This document shows, piece after piece, positions 23,218 to 30,386 of a DNA stretch of 32,795 bases (its first letter is position 1; each line of letters opens with the position of its first letter). Origin of the DNA: an uncultured Planctomycetaceae bacterium (GTDB lineage: Bacteria; Planctomycetota; Planctomycetia; Planctomycetales; Planctomycetaceae); NCBI GenBank assembly GCA_937916515.1, contig CALFSX010000138.1:1-32795 (forward strand), read 5' to 3'. Under the pieces are notes generated by a model, which ran no database searches, had not been told where the DNA came from, and saw nothing but the letters and a program-made list of their open reading frames with translations. Both the position numbers and the translations under genes were made by a program.

Positions 23218-24714
23218 ATGATGATTCGAACTGTTACTTTCTGTTTGCTGGCCATCGCAGCTTGCATGCCGTATTTGCGTGCCGCTGATTCACTGAAGGG
23301 GTCTCGCCCCAACATCATTCTGGTGATTACAGACGATCAGGGTTACGGTCCCGTTGGGCGTCACGGGCACCCCTGGCTGAAGACGCCGAACATGGACGAA
23401 CTGTACGACGCCAGCACGCGGTTCACTCGCTTTCTGGTGGCTCCCACGTGCGCTCCCACTCGATCTGCGTTGATGACCGGACGACATCCGATGCAGAACG
23501 GGGTCACTCATACGATTCTGGAACGAGAACGAATGACGCTGGACGCTTTCATTCTGCCGCAGATGTTAAAGACCGTCGGCTATACGTCCGGAATTTTCGG
23601 GAAGTGGCATCTGGGCGACGAAGAAGAATACCAACCTCACACACGCGGCTTTGACGAAGCGTTTATTCATGGAGCAGGGGGCATCGGCCAGGCCTACGCC
23701 TGCAGTTGTGCGGACGCTCCCGACAATAAGTACTTCGATCCGGCAATTCGTCACAACGGCAAGTTCGTGAAGACTCACGGATTCTGCACAGACGTCTTCT
23801 TCACCGCTGCATTGGGATGGATTAAAGAAAAGCACGAAGCCAAAGAACCGTTCTTCGCGTACATCAGCACGAACGCTCCTCACGGCCCGTTTATTGCTCC
23901 CCCTGCAAGCCGCAAACGATTTGAAGACATGGGCTTTGAATCTCAAACGGCTGGTTTCTACGGCATGATCGAGAACATCGACGACAACATGGGGCGTCTG
24001 ATGTTGAAGCTTGACGAATGGAACATGCAGGAAAACACCATGGTGATCTTTATGTCAGACAATGGCATGACGGGTGGCGGTTCCGGCCGACAAGGCAAGG
24101 CGCTGGGCAAAACAGCCGACGGCAAAGAACTGCAACTGTACAACGCCAACATGAAGGGGCTGAAAGGCAGCAGCGACGAAGGCGGTGTGCGAGTTCCCTT
24201 TTTTGTGAGATGGAATGGCAAAGTGAACGCTGGCAAAGATGTTGATCGGATCGCCGCTCATATCGACCTGTATCCCACGTTGGCGTCATTAACGGGAGCC
24301 AGCCTTCCGGAAGGCCAGGTTTCCGGGCGAGACCTTGTTCCGCTCATTGAAAACCCCAATGCCGACTGGGAAGACCGGTTCCTGTTTACTCACCAGGGAC
24401 GCTGGAAAACGGGAGTCAACCCGGACAATGATCAGTGGAAGCACTTTGCTGTTCGCAATCAGAAGTACCGATTTGTCGATAACAACGCTTTGTTCGACAT
24501 GGAAGCTGATCCTTCACAGAAAAACAACGTAATTGAACAGCATCCGGAAATCGTTAAACAAATGAAAGCCGCGTATGAATCATGGTGGAAGGTAACCCGG
24601 CCCATGATGGTCAACGAATCGGCTCCTATGTCACCGGTTCGCCCCTTCCACGTTCTGTTTGAAGAACAACAGAAGAACGGCGGAATTCCCGATTGGCAGG
24701 CGCCGAATCTTTAG
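23218..24714 (+). CDS. Secreted sulfatase (arylsulfatase/type I family)
   Basis: A 498-aa sulfatase that removes sulfate esters, probably from a polysaccharide. A signal peptide covers about residues 1-23 (cleavage near RAAD). PNIILVITDDQGYG (31-44) supplies the metal-binding aspartates D39 and D40. The signature is CAPTRSALMTGR with C78 as the formylglycine precursor; it has Thr rather than Ser at the fourth position, which the family allows. FGKWHLG, HGPF and SDNG (about 279-282) are the remaining active-site segments. Maturation needs a formylglycine-generating enzyme, not in the window. It converges with the GH2-symporter operon, suggesting joint use of a sulfated substrate. The ATG pair 23218/23221 follows AGGG. 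Confidence 0.95.
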   Translation: MMIRTVTFCLLAIAACMPYLRAADSLKGSRPNIILVITDDQGYGPVGRHGHPWLKTPNMDELYDASTRFTRFLVAPTCAPTRSALMTGRHPMQNGVTHTILERERMTLDAFILPQMLKTVGYTSGIFGKWHLGDEEEYQPHTRGFDEAFIHGAGGIGQAYACSCADAPDNKYFDPAIRHNGKFVKTHGFCTDVFFTAALGWIKEKHEAKEPFFAYISTNAPHGPFIAPPASRKRFEDMGFESQTAGFYGMIENIDDNMGRLMLKLDEWNMQENTMVIFMSDNGMTGGGSGRQGKALGKTADGKELQLYNANMKGLKGSSDEGGVRVPFFVRWNGKVNAGKDVDRIAAHIDLYPTLASLTGASLPEGQVSGRDLVPLIENPNADWEDRFLFTHQGRWKTGVNPDNDQWKHFAVRNQKYRFVDNNALFDMEADPSQKNNVIEQHPEIVKQMKAAYESWWKVTRPMMVNESAPMSPVRPFHVLFEEQQKNGGIPDWQAPNL

Positions 24715-25326: not shown

Positions 25327-27612
25327 TCAGTTCGCAAACAGAATGCGGTGCATTTTGGCAAGTTCTGCGGCTGGGATTTTGATGACTTTTCGATCGTATG
25401 TCATCAGTCCGTTGATCTCGCCTTCGACGTCGGTTGTTTGAGTGTAAACACCGGCGGCGATGCCCTGCCTGCGAAGATCGTTCAGCATGTTCAGGCTGGT
25501 TTTGTAGCGTTCCTGATATTCTGCGGAATCTTTCGGCAAGTCGCCATAGCCCCAGTTTCTGCGGTTGGCGTCCCACAGATGATTCTGCACCGGAAGCCCG
25601 TGGCCTCCGAATTCGCCCATCACTTTTACAAAACCATCAAAGCGTCCGTTGGCTCCCAGATGGAACGGGAATCGGGGATGAGGATAACTGTGTTCGTCAA
25701 CCACATCGCCAACAGGCCAGAAGTTGCCTCCACTGGCTACGTTCACCAGGCGTGATGGATCGCGTTCGACCGTCCATTTGCCAACTTCCATGGTGCGATG
25801 TTGGCCCCACGCTTCGTTGAATGGCACCCAAACCGTGATGCAGGCATGACTTTCCAGCAACGTGATCATGCGCTCCAGTTCCAGCATGAACTGAGCGTGT
25901 TCTGTGTCCGGCCATTGAGCGTCTTTGGGGTTTGGTTCCAGGCGAGTCCACGGCGGATTATTGCCAGCGCTGACCTGGTCCTGCCACACCATCATGCCCA
26001 GTCGATCGCAGTGATAATAGTAGCGACGCGGTTCAACCTTGATGTGCTTGCGAATCATGTTGAAGCCAGCCGACTTCAGCCATTCAATATCAAACAACAT
26101 GGCTTCGTCAGACGGTGGAGTCAGCAGTCCGTCCGGCCACCAGCCCTGATCCAGCGGGCCCCAATGGAAGATTGGCTTGCCGTTTAACAGAAATCTGAGG
26201 TTTCCGTCTTTGTCGGCAGCTTTGGAAACGCTGCGAATACCGGCATAGCTGTTGACGGTTTCAATGGTTGAGCCATCGGCTGCCAGCAGTTGCAGTTCGA
26301 TGTCGTACAGATGCGGAGAATCCGGCGACCACAGTTTGGCCTTGGGAATCGTCAGCGTCAAATTGTCCGCGGCGCCCTTGCCTTCCGCCACAATGTTCTC
26401 ACCTTCACGAATGATGGCTCGCACATTGTGCCCGCCTGTTCCCTGAGCTCCTGAAACGCTTGTCGCAACGCTAATGGTGCCAGCGTCTGCATTGGTGGAA
26501 AGTTTGATGTCTTGAATATGCGTGGCTGGCACGCGTTCCAGCCACACGGTTTGCCAGATTCCGGACACCTGAGTGTACCAGATACCTCGAGCATTCAGAG
26601 TTTGCTTGCCACGCAACTGCCACTTTTCCGTGTCGTCTTCAACTCGCACAACAAGTTCGTTTGCCCCGTTCTTGACTGCGGCAGAAACGTCAAAGAAGAA
26701 GGGAGTGTTACCGCCCTGATGTTTGCCGACAGACGTGCTGTTCACGAACACTTCGCAGCGGTAATCGACCGCTTCAAAATTCAGCAGCAGCTTCTCTCTG
26801 GCGGAAGTTTTTGCTTCAAACGTTCGGCGGTACCACAGTGCTTCCGTGCCATCCAATAGACGTTGCACCTTGCCAAGCTTTGATTCCAGGCAAAACGGAA
26901 CCAGAATTTCGCCGTCCCATTTGGCTGGCACTTCTGTCTGCTTCACGTCGCTGATTGCGTAGTCCCACATTCCGTTCAGGTTGGTCCAGTTTTTACGCTG
27001 CAGCAGAGGTCGTGGGTATTCTGTCCACGCGTTTTCCGGAGTCACTTCGGAGCCCCAGGTGGTGATCAATTCCGACTGAAACGGCTTTGTATCTCGTTTG
27101 GCCGGTGGAAGTTCCGGTACGTTGTCGCCGTCAACCAAATGGACGTCGATAAATTGTCCGCCGGTTGTTTGGCGACAATGCACGGCCATCACATTTTTTC
27201 CGGCCTGCAAGGTTTCTCGATTGATGGCCGGAATCTGCACGACTTCGTACTTGTTGGTGAAACCTTTCAGCTGAGCAACCGCTCTTCCGTTGATGTACAC
27301 TTCGACGTCTTCGTCGTGATGCATCAACAGCACCGGATTGGCTGGCACCGTTTCCAGTGTAAACGTTTTTCGCAGCCAGATAGACTTCGTTCCCCACGTT
27401 GTGCCAACTCGCGCACCGGGAGTATCCTGCGTGCCAAAACCGCCGAAGCCCTGCGTCCAATCGGCATCGTCAAAGTTTGACTGTCGCCAGCCGTCTGCTG
27501 GCTTCTTTACGGTATACCGCCATTCATCAACAATTTGCTGAGCATCACAGGTTGATGCGGCATTCAGCAAAAAGGACAGGCACAATAATGGCAGAATTCC
27601 GGAATACATCAT
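25327..27612 (-). CDS. Secreted glycoside hydrolase family 2 protein
   Basis: A 761-aa glycosidase with a signal peptide (about residues 1-24). Residues 28-160 form an extra N-terminal jelly-roll-like module; then come the GH2 sugar-binding domain (about 200-360: NLNGMWDYAI, LWYRRTFEA, VDYRCEVFVN), the Ig-like domain (about 365-460) and the TIM barrel (about 465-761). The acid/base is E600 in WVPFNEAWGQ (NE pair) and the nucleophile is E667 in VMGEFGG, in the normal order. The family covers beta-galactosidases, beta-glucuronidases and beta-mannosidases; the substrate is not readable from the sequence. Export implies action outside the cytoplasm. It follows the symporter-mutarotase gene by 74 bp on the same strand, a probable operon, and ends in a hairpin terminator. 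ATG 27610-27612 and the next codon are both Met. Confidence 0.93.
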   Translation of the reverse strand: MMYSGILPLLCLSFLLNAASTCDAQQIVDEWRYTVKKPADGWRQSNFDDADWTQGFGGFGTQDTPGARVGTTWGTKSIWLRKTFTLETVPANPVLLMHHDEDVEVYINGRAVAQLKGFTNKYEVVQIPAINRETLQAGKNVMAVHCRQTTGGQFIDVHLVDGDNVPELPPAKRDTKPFQSELITTWGSEVTPENAWTEYPRPLLQRKNWTNLNGMWDYAISDVKQTEVPAKWDGEILVPFCLESKLGKVQRLLDGTEALWYRRTFEAKTSAREKLLLNFEAVDYRCEVFVNSTSVGKHQGGNTPFFFDVSAAVKNGANELVVRVEDDTEKWQLRGKQTLNARGIWYTQVSGIWQTVWLERVPATHIQDIKLSTNADAGTISVATSVSGAQGTGGHNVRAIIREGENIVAEGKGAADNLTLTIPKAKLWSPDSPHLYDIELQLLAADGSTIETVNSYAGIRSVSKAADKDGNLRFLLNGKPIFHWGPLDQGWWPDGLLTPPSDEAMLFDIEWLKSAGFNMIRKHIKVEPRRYYYHCDRLGMMVWQDQVSAGNNPPWTRLEPNPKDAQWPDTEHAQFMLELERMITLLESHACITVWVPFNEAWGQHRTMEVGKWTVERDPSRLVNVASGGNFWPVGDVVDEHSYPHPRFPFHLGANGRFDGFVKVMGEFGGHGLPVQNHLWDANRRNWGYGDLPKDSAEYQERYKTSLNMLNDLRRQGIAAGVYTQTTDVEGEINGLMTYDRKVIKIPAAELAKMHRILFAN

Positions 27613-27686: not shown

Positions 27687-30386
27687 CTATTCTTCAGATT
27701 CGGTTTCTGCTTCTGCGTTGCGAACCGAGAACGTGAATACGGTTTTCGTTTTGTATTCACTGCCCGGGTTAAGAATGGTTGACGGGAAGTTGGGCTGATT
27801 CGGGCTGTCAGGGAAGTGTTGAGTTTCCAGGCAAAAGCCGCCACGATGAACGTACGGCTTGCCGGATTTGCCCGTCAGCCGACCATCCAGAAAGTTGCCG
27901 CAATAAAATTGAAGGCCAGGTTCTGTGGTTTCGACGGTCAGCACTCGACCGGTTGTCGGTTCAAACACTTCCGCAGCAAGGGTTAGCGTTGAGTCGGTTT
28001 CGGGCTTGTTCAGTACCCAGTTGTGGTCGTAGCCCAGGCCGAATGTCAGCTGTTGATTGTCCTGCCCGATGTCGCGACCAATCGCCTTGGCAGTGGTGAA
28101 GTCAAATGGCGTGTTTTTAACGGTTGGCAGTTCGCCGGTGGGAATCAAGCCTTCGTTAACGGGAGTATACGAATCGGCATTCAGCATTAATTCGTGATCA
28201 AGAATCGTGCCTTCGCCTTCTCCCTTGAGGTTAAAGTACGTGTGCTGAGTCAGGTTGACGGGCGTGGCCTTGTCGGTGACGGCCAGATAGTCGATGACGA
28301 TAGAGTTGTTGCTTGTCAGAGTATACGTCACCGTGACGGCCAGATTGCCGGGATAGCCTTCTTCCATATCTTTGGCCAGGTAAGACAGTTCGATCGCGTT
28401 GCTGGCCGGATCTGGTTTGGCCGTCCAGATGACTTTGTCGAAGCCGATTACTCCGCCGTGCAGATGGTTTTCTCCGTTGTTCTTTGCCAGCGTATAGGTT
28501 TCGCCATCCAGAGTGAACTGGCCGTTGGCGATGCGGTTTCCATAGCGTCCGACGATGGCTCCAAAGTACGGCTTGTCGACGGCGTTCATGTAACCGTCAG
28601 CGCTGTTGTATCCCAAAGCCACGTCCTGCATGTTGCCTTTGTTGTCTGGCACCATGATGGATGTAATGATGGCTCCATAGTTGGTCACCTTAACCGACAT
28701 GCCATTTTCGTTTTGCAACGTGAACTGTCGGATGTCTGCAAAGTCTGACCCAGCGGGTGGATCCAACACGCTGAAGTCAGCAAACGTTGCATAGATGCCG
28801 AACACTGTGGCGATAAGAGCCAGCCCGGCAGGCTTGGCAAGTCGCCAGGGAGTCATGTCAACGGCTCCCACATCCTGCTGGTTGAATTCTTCGGCACTGG
28901 GCTTAACTTCGCCAATCACAAACATCAGCACCACCAGCCAGGCGAACACAAGACCCAGAAAATGGAATTCGTGCAACGACGCCACCACTTTGTCGAACGG
29001 AGACACAAAATAGCCAACCGCAATAATTGAAAAGCCGGCAATCAACGCAATCTTCGCGGCAACCGGTGGAACTCGTTTGGAAATCATGCCGACCAGCACA
29101 ACGGCAAAGATCGGTATGAAATACATTCCGTTCATCTTCTGTAGATAGCCAAATATGCTGGTGGTGTTCGCCAGCAAAGGAGCAATCACCATGGCAATAA
29201 TGGCGACGATCCAGCCAAACACTTTTCCAGAACGGACCACAGATTCTTCGCTGGCGTTTTTGTTCAGAACGCTTTTGTAAAGGCCGAGGCTGAACAACGT
29301 ACAAGAACTGTTGAGCGCGGAATTAAAGCTGGACAGAATCGCTCCAATCATCGCGGCTGCAAAGAAACCGGTCAGATGCGGCGGAAGAACTCGATTCACC
29401 AGCATGCCGTACGCCTGGTCGGGCTTAATACCTTCACCGGCAAAAACGGTGTAGGCAATCATGCCCGGAACAACCAGATACAGCGGCCCCAGCAGTTTGA
29501 GTGCTCCTGTTAACAGAACGCCTTTCTGACCTTCGGCAAGACTGCTGGCGCCAAACGTGCGTTGGATGATCTGCTGGTTGGTGGTCCAGTAAAACAGGTT
29601 CAACAAGAAGATGCCGGAAAAGATTGTTCCAAAGGGAACAGAGCTGCTGGTGCTTCCGACGGAATTCAGTCGAGCCTTCTGTTCGGTGATCAGCTTAGTC
29701 GCTCCGGCACTGAATCCATCGTCGCCGCCCAGCAGGTTGATCGCGAAAATGGTGATCAGAAATCCGCCGACAAACAGGCCGATGCCGTTCAGTGTGTCAG
29801 AAACCGCAACTGTGCGAAGCCCGCCAAACAGGGCATAGATGGCTCCCACAATTCCCACCAGCCACACAATCAAATACAGCGAAAGCGTGTCCGGGTTAAT
29901 GTCTAACGCTTCGGGAAGTCCGCCCAGCATTTCGGGGACATTCAAAATCCCCATCATTCCGGTCGCACCTGTGTATAAAATGATCGGCAGCAGAATTCCG
30001 ACGTACGCCAACAGGAAAATCAGGTTGGTGATCACCTGAGTCTGATGGTCGAAGCGAATTTCGAGATACTGCGGCACGGTCGCCACACCGCTTTTCAAGA
30101 AGCGAGGCAGAAAGAACCACGCCATAAATACCAGAGCCACCACGCACACAACTTCCCAGACCATCACGCACAAGCCGTCGGTGAAGGCAGCTCCGTTAAG
30201 TCCGACCATCTGTTCTGTGGAAAGATTCGTCAGCAGCAGCGATCCCGCAATCAGCGGAAACGACAATGAGCGTCCCGCCAGAAAATAGCCGCTGCTGCTG
30301 TCGTGGTCGTCGCCTTTGGTCAGCCACCACGTGCAAACCGCGACAAGCCCCGTGAAGAACAGAAAGGAAAGAAGAGTAATCAACAT
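27687..30386 (-). CDS. Na+/sugar symporter fused to galactose mutarotase
   Basis: A single 899-codon frame with two complete modules. Residues 1-536 are a solute:sodium symporter (SSS/SLC5) with about 14 hydrophobic segments; LTNLSTEQMVGLNG (52-65) and AILSSFNSALNSS (349-361, Na+ site serines) are typical, and it resembles E. coli YidK. After a short linker (about 537-550), residues 551-890 are an aldose 1-epimerase: H643 in NHLHGG, H715 in LTQHTYFNL, D787 in GYDHNW and E854 in FCLETQ are the expected binding and catalytic residues. vSGLT-type transporters have 14 spans with both ends outside, so the mutarotase is probably periplasmic, converting sugar anomers next to the transporter. It is upstream of and co-directional with the GH2 gene. 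No stop or frame change separates the modules. Confidence 0.93.
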   Translation of the reverse strand: MLITLLSFLFFTGLVAVCTWWLTKGDDHDSSSGYFLAGRSLSFPLIAGSLLLTNLSTEQMVGLNGAAFTDGLCVMVWEVVCVVALVFMAWFFLPRFLKSGVATVPQYLEIRFDHQTQVITNLIFLLAYVGILLPIILYTGATGMMGILNVPEMLGGLPEALDINPDTLSLYLIVWLVGIVGAIYALFGGLRTVAVSDTLNGIGLFVGGFLITIFAINLLGGDDGFSAGATKLITEQKARLNSVGSTSSSVPFGTIFSGIFLLNLFYWTTNQQIIQRTFGASSLAEGQKGVLLTGALKLLGPLYLVVPGMIAYTVFAGEGIKPDQAYGMLVNRVLPPHLTGFFAAAMIGAILSSFNSALNSSCTLFSLGLYKSVLNKNASEESVVRSGKVFGWIVAIIAMVIAPLLANTTSIFGYLQKMNGMYFIPIFAVVLVGMISKRVPPVAAKIALIAGFSIIAVGYFVSPFDKVVASLHEFHFLGLVFAWLVVLMFVIGEVKPSAEEFNQQDVGAVDMTPWRLAKPAGLALIATVFGIYATFADFSVLDPPAGSDFADIRQFTLQNENGMSVKVTNYGAIITSIMVPDNKGNMQDVALGYNSADGYMNAVDKPYFGAIVGRYGNRIANGQFTLDGETYTLAKNNGENHLHGGVIGFDKVIWTAKPDPASNAIELSYLAKDMEEGYPGNLAVTVTYTLTSNNSIVIDYLAVTDKATPVNLTQHTYFNLKGEGEGTILDHELMLNADSYTPVNEGLIPTGELPTVKNTPFDFTTAKAIGRDIGQDNQQLTFGLGYDHNWVLNKPETDSTLTLAAEVFEPTTGRVLTVETTEPGLQFYCGNFLDGRLTGKSGKPYVHRGGFCLETQHFPDSPNQPNFPSTILNPGSEYKTKTVFTFSVRNAEAETESEE

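Follow-up and report, generated by a model that had tools for sequence, protein, structure and literature searches.

The analysed stretch of DNA (the window) comprises 32,795 nucleotides from an uncultured Planctomycetaceae bacterium, and its minus strand contains an open reading frame of 899 codons that runs unbroken from an ATG at position 30386 to a stop codon ending at position 27687 (27687..30386). The coordinates in the original prediction carried no strand; the plus strand at 27687-30386 is interrupted by stops, and the gene lies on the minus strand. In the predicted full-length product of ~97 kDa, one chain carries a solute:sodium symporter (SSS) together with a complete-looking aldose 1-epimerase (galactose mutarotase, GalM) module. 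Pfam and NCBIfam profiles matched both halves, and both domains scored above their Pfam cut-offs, which bears out the prediction that transporter and mutarotase share a single polypeptide. From the N-terminus, the minus-strand gene encodes the SSS (SLC5/vSGLT-like) part with 14 hydropathic spans (residues 1-541; 28764..30386; delimited by profiles, hydropathy and alignment), a junction linker DPPAGS in place of the stop, spacer and leader of the relatives (residues 542-547; 28746..28763), the GalM part (residues 548-889; 27720..28745; delimited by profiles and alignment), and a short acidic C-terminal tail seen in the translation (residues 890-899; 27690..27719). Most of the neighbouring but separate GalM relatives have their C-terminus at, or a few residues from, the position of residue 889. 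The GC3 values of the SSS half (0.638) and the GalM half (0.637) were equal. The AlphaFold2 model of the fusion reached a mean pLDDT of 79 and a pTM of 0.57, with pLDDT below 50 at residues 540-548 around the linker.

Analysis of the SSS half revealed a match to Pfam SSF (PF00474) at residues 34-451 (E 7.9e-47; 160.5 bits against a curated cut-off of 22.8) and a score of 276.4 bits with TIGR00813 (cut-off 184). The best family-level match, covering residues 2-538, was NCBIfam PRK10484 solute:sodium symporter (674.6 bits; cut-off 401), a model whose name specifies no sugar. Foldseek aligned the SSS half of the model with the vSGLT structures 2xq2 (TM 0.82 by target, 556 columns) and 3dh4 (TM 0.83 by target, 543 columns). 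In the alignment, N54, Q59, E78, N263, Y266, K297 and Q416 of the fusion correspond to N64, Q69, E88, N260, Y263, K294 and Q428 of vSGLT, and S352 and S353 correspond to S364 and S365, both serines being kept; we take the vSGLT numbering and the sugar-contact and Na2-site roles of these residues as given, and the K294 numbering is consistent with the PDB title of the matched structure. The position of vSGLT S91 is occupied by C81 in the fusion, and among 99 aligned SSS rows it holds Ala in 60, Cys in 22 and Ser in 15. The N260-equivalent position is Asn in 73 of these 99 rows. These features suggest that the SSS half is a vSGLT-like member of the SSS/SLC5 family, for which sodium-coupled sugar transport is predicted. 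In the SSS tree, the nearest sister of the fusion's SSS part was not resolved.

The GalM half matched Pfam Aldose_epim (PF01263) at residues 554-884 (E 5.1e-93; 312.2 bits against a curated cut-off of 27) and the NCBIfam subfamily model PRK11055 (332.4 bits; cut-off 240), and it scored 350.4 bits with the equivalog TIGR02636 galM_Leloir, under the cut-off of 397.65. Foldseek aligned this half of the model with human GalM 1snz (TM 0.85 by target). The four active-site residues named in the original prediction, H643, H715, D787 and E854, were found at exactly those positions and were invariant in all 14 aligned GalM rows, the fusion included; they correspond to the catalytic His, His, Asp and Glu of GalM enzymes. 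The fused GalM was 65-74% identical to the GalMs of loci with neighbouring SSS and galM genes, versus 50-54% to the other two full-length GalMs of its own genome. Its end branch in the tree (0.41) is barely past the range of the unfused proteins (0.03-0.40, with one at 1.01), so there is no clear sign of decay, and this similar protein divergence speaks for a kept function, not for an advantage of the fusion. Elsewhere in the same genome, which contains at least four Aldose_epim matches, there are two or more further GalM genes, of which one has a leader-like N-terminus (L002:1462-2598) and another has no evident leader at the chosen start (L003:1489-2535).

In the relatives, SSS and galM were found as neighbouring but separate genes in nine loci (L008, L009, L012, L014, L020, L021, L027, L028 and L035), of which eight are distinct since the SSS proteins of L008 and L020 are identical. 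The SSS of these loci stops shortly past span 14. In L028 and L035, from relatives of the Rhodopirellula type, the SSS stop and the galM start overlap by 4 nt (L028:7662-7665; L035:7626-7629), one step from a fusion. In Rhodopirellula europaea 6C (L021:6001-8838), the same type of GalM (69%) lies beside a much more distant SSS (46%), which suggests that GalMs of this type have become, or have remained, partners of different transporters. An apparent second fusion in G051 (L008, open frame 962) was rejected, as two stops lie between the genes.

From the end of the SSS match to the start of the GalM match, the interval measured 88-201 nt in the nine loci (eight distinct) versus 18 nt in the fusion; the interval of the relatives includes a stop codon, the beginning of a gene and a leader, none of which is present in the fusion. 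The original prediction had considered that an error at 28740-28790 might have removed a stop. The comparison disposed of this as a single-base matter: stop, spacer and leader are all gone, and a missed stop or a base-call error is therefore inadequate as an explanation. The tail LDPPAGSD of the fusion resembles the tail LDPDSGSD of an unfused SSS (L013/L030). An imperfect 14-nt direct repeat occurs in three copies in the GalM part (28554-28567, 28668-28681 and 28731-28744), the last of them 86% identical and ending one base from the boundary between linker and GalM. The presence of this repeat near the junction, the draft state of the genome (343 contigs) and the finding of the fusion in a single genome would all fit an assembly artefact, in which ~100 bp were collapsed from a true genome with a separate SSS and a galM carrying its leader. 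However, both frames are preserved across the join, the linker is similar to a native SSS tail, and the repeat is short and imperfect and was judged too weak for a collapse, although collapsed-out sequence would be invisible to the repeat test. On these grounds an assembly collapse at the junction appears unlikely, and we give the artefact very little credence.

A full match over residues 1-899 was obtained in the fusion's own genome alone among the 8 genomes of the genus, in one of 170 genomes of the family (24 genomes matched at E 1e-180) and in one of 392 genomes of the phylum sample (again the same genome; 24 matched at E 1e-150), the family and phylum counts covering scored candidates, a subset of the first-look candidates per genome. 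Besides this full-length match, the genome yielded four partial ones. Among the 80 loci retained out of 284 relatives, a contig set that may exclude the source genome itself or very near genomes, five span both halves and none is fused. A fusion shared across the clade was rejected on these counts, and the fusion appears to derive from separate genes that lay side by side and not to represent a conserved architecture. The other seven members of the genus gave SSS homologues alone, at 41-51% identity or lower, which implied that either transfer brought in the gene set or the remaining members lost it.

In the phylum sample, PF01263 matched 158 of the 392 genomes at E 1e-20. No SSS domain was detected at E 1e-6 in five of the at least six GalM frames longer than 600 aa that this sample contains besides the window's; the long frames outside this check are those of G291 (625 aa), G069 (798 aa) and G097 (1244 or 400 aa, depending on the search). 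In the gammaproteobacterial SSS homologues, the matched ranges stop short of the GalM domain proper. Halomonas and further planctomycete families also have SSS proteins of this type, at ~60-65% identity (L057, L110, L113 and similar), and no GalM match was found at these loci within the stretches fetched. A search of titles and abstract openings in the open-access literature found no description of an SSS-GalM fusion.

Simple hydropathy analysis of the fusion, at one chosen threshold on which the span count rests, gave 14 spans, the last at residues 522-540. A review (PMC7918813) describes SGLT-type proteins as having 14 spans, the SSS N-terminus as lying outside and the SSS fold as having 13-15 spans. 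An even number of spans together with an outside N-terminus would place the C-terminus outside as well. In all nine SSS-galM loci, the unfused GalM starts with a signal-peptide-like leader, assigned by eye as were all leaders and signal-peptide-like N-termini in this study. Both lines agree with the placement of the enzyme outside the membrane, which the original prediction had made conditional on vSGLT topology, and the mutarotase domain is probably located on the outer (periplasmic) face of the inner membrane. The side of the membrane is best supported by the combination of an ancestral GalM that was presumably exported with a fused GalM on an outward-facing end. The GalM of Escherichia coli is cytoplasmic, and a cytoplasmic mutarotase domain that readies the imported sugar for metabolism would have that precedent; however, the even span number with N-out orientation and the leaders of the unfused neighbouring GalMs both point to the opposite side, and we regard such a location as extremely improbable.

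A real fusion gene could also deliver its GalM as a free periplasmic protein, through a signal peptidase cut after span 14 (Y-A-T-F-A / D537) or through an internal start at the ATG of codon 511. Residues 532-537 (YATFAD) read as a possible site under the general rule for signal peptidase, and a GGGAG lies 8 nt before the ATG of codon 511, from which a product would begin in a signal-anchor-like manner. But ATFADFSVL is also present near the end of an SSS without GalM (L013/L030), hence it did not arise as a cleavage site, and the Shine-Dalgarno-like GGGAG falls within conserved codons. Among 12 sequences compared, GGGAG before this ATG was confined to the window, with GGAG also in L012, L014 and L006. 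We consider release of the mutarotase rather unlikely and retain the membrane-held domain as the preferred reading.

A glycoside hydrolase gene of family GH2 (761 aa; 25327..27612, minus strand), with a signal-peptide-like N-terminus by eye and the motifs NEAWG and GEFGG, lies 74 bp downstream of the fusion stop on the same strand. This spacing, the leader and a gene order common to relatives are consistent with the secreted, co-operonic GH2 enzyme of the original prediction. The gene order was compared in a set of 51 SSS loci, the window among them (43 distinct proteins; many short flanks), all of which had a usable start and an identity of 66% or more. In this set, GalM adjoins SSS in eight loci besides the window (L008 and L020 being copies), and GH2 lies downstream of SSS in seven loci besides the window (L013 and L030 being copies). 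The order SSS-galM-GH2 was found in four relatives (L009, L012, L028 and L035), and longer stretches confirmed a near full-length GH2 at 64.6% in G141 (L009) and at 66.1% in G126 (L012). SSS and GH2 without GalM occur in L011, L013/L030 and L042, the last of which has no start and stands outside the set of 51. As such loci exist and GalM does not adjoin SSS in the majority of the 51, the mutarotase appears to be an optional component that the system can do without. Nearby, at 23218-24714 on the strand opposite to GH2, lies a sulfatase-like gene (PF00884, PF16347) whose start is leader-like; other sulfatases, of low identity, are found near SSS in several relatives.

The best structure match of the GH2 enzyme was 7sf2 (530 bits), a structure without a stated activity, and matches were also obtained with the beta-D-galactofuranosidase 9j6n (383 bits) and its twin 9j6m (381 bits); 7xyr (GH2_19) scored 262 bits and LacZ-type chains scored at most 69 bits. 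The best NCBIfam match was a LacZ-type model at 125 bits, well below its cut-off of 999. A 2025 subfamily study places 9J6M in the furanosidase group GH2_18 (PMC12243196). By the structure-match scores, the enzyme appears to resemble GH2_18 furanosidases more than LacZ. In the genome, no match was found to the galactokinase signature domain or to arabinose isomerase, and one weak galT-like match was obtained; since several Aldose_epim matches are present nevertheless, the mutarotases may serve another sugar or route. If GH2 frees furanoses, uptake would have to be preceded by a change of ring form as well as of anomer; help from GalM in this step is a speculation.

Taken together, we think it likely that the fusion arose from neighbouring genes for an SSS, an exported GalM and a GH2, and that its product is a membrane-held periplasmic mutarotase serving its own importer. 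In the simplest history, a deletion that removed the SSS stop codon, the intervening spacer and the leader of GalM without disturbing either frame would have joined span 14 to the mature GalM, and span 14 would now direct the export that the leader directed before. In the proposed working, the secreted GH2 would release a monosaccharide on the extracytoplasmic side, where the tethered mutarotase, next to the importer, would hasten the equilibration of its anomers; the symporter would import the sugar with sodium. The covalent link would fix a 1:1 stoichiometry and the co-localisation of mutarotase and symporter. The channelling of hydrolysis, anomer conversion and uptake advanced in the original prediction is plausible, and a direct hand-over of substrate between the active sites is possible. 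An anomer preference of the transporter and a position of the enzyme at its mouth, both part of that prediction, are conjectural; span 14 is peripheral in the vSGLT-type fold, and model confidence is low at residues 540-548. We put forward with considerable reserve the stronger proposal of a single-chain transport metabolon, in which the tethered mutarotase would turn the sugar form released by the furanosidase-like GH2 into the form accepted by the symporter, so that control over uptake would extend beyond the identity of the sugar to its ring form or anomer. The same anatomy could have come about neutrally, by a chance deletion that joined genes whose products already shared a compartment and that improved nothing relative to the separate genes; this account disputes the benefit alone, and its odds overlap with those of the preferred origin. 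It would agree with the single occurrence, with the separate genes in all other loci having both, and with the 4-nt stop/start overlap of L028 and L035, from which a fusion needs little; nothing speaks against it directly, the GalM divergence favouring a kept function but not an advantage. We rate this neutral account as a serious possibility, a little short of an even chance.

For the preferred reading of a tethered mutarotase at its own importer, the natural fusion, for which the separate genes of the relatives offer an existing control, makes the question of mutarotase-assisted uptake testable. The fusion also suggests that an outward-facing SSS C-terminus can replace a lost signal peptide for export, and in planctomycetes the gene order connects SSS with an exported GalM and with a GH2 of furanosidase-like type.

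Compared with known systems, the fusion shares the SSS fold, the Na2-site serines and most galactose-contact positions with vSGLT of Vibrio parahaemolyticus (TC 2.A.21), whereas vSGLT is without an enzyme domain and has S91 where the fusion has C81. The fold and the four catalytic residues are common to GalM (human GALM 1snz; Lactococcus lactis 1l7k), but the GalM of the fusion is tethered to a transporter and, in contrast to its relatives encoded by neighbouring genes, has no leader. The Rhodopirellula-type set of SSS, galM with leader and GH2 (L009, L012, L028 and L035) has the same parts in the same order as the window; its genes are separate, as in nine of nine loci with SSS and GalM, whereas those of the window are fused. 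The yeast protein Gal10 (1z45), which is cytosolic, likewise contains a GalM-type domain in a natural fusion, but with UDP-galactose 4-epimerase and with no transporter. According to passages of PMC7918813, SSS domains fused to sensor-kinase domains exist; these proteins carry an added module like the fusion, but one for signalling and not a sugar enzyme. The closest functional parallel comes from excerpts of PMC10017367, in which the periplasmic sialic acid mutarotase NanM is proposed to act ahead of NanT and may raise the uptake of a glycosidase product; parts of PMC10942642 are a further source for this type of proposal. NanM thus resembles the fusion, whose enzyme is probably also extracytoplasmic and may likewise aid uptake of a glycosidase product, but it is a beta-propeller and a soluble homodimer separate from the transporter, and in those excerpts the argument that an extracytoplasmic mutarotase supplies an importer concerns sialic acid and not hexoses (PMC10017367). 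A fused mutarotase serving its importer is best read as following the NanM-NanT logic. The parts are already known, and what appears to be new is their union in one chain.
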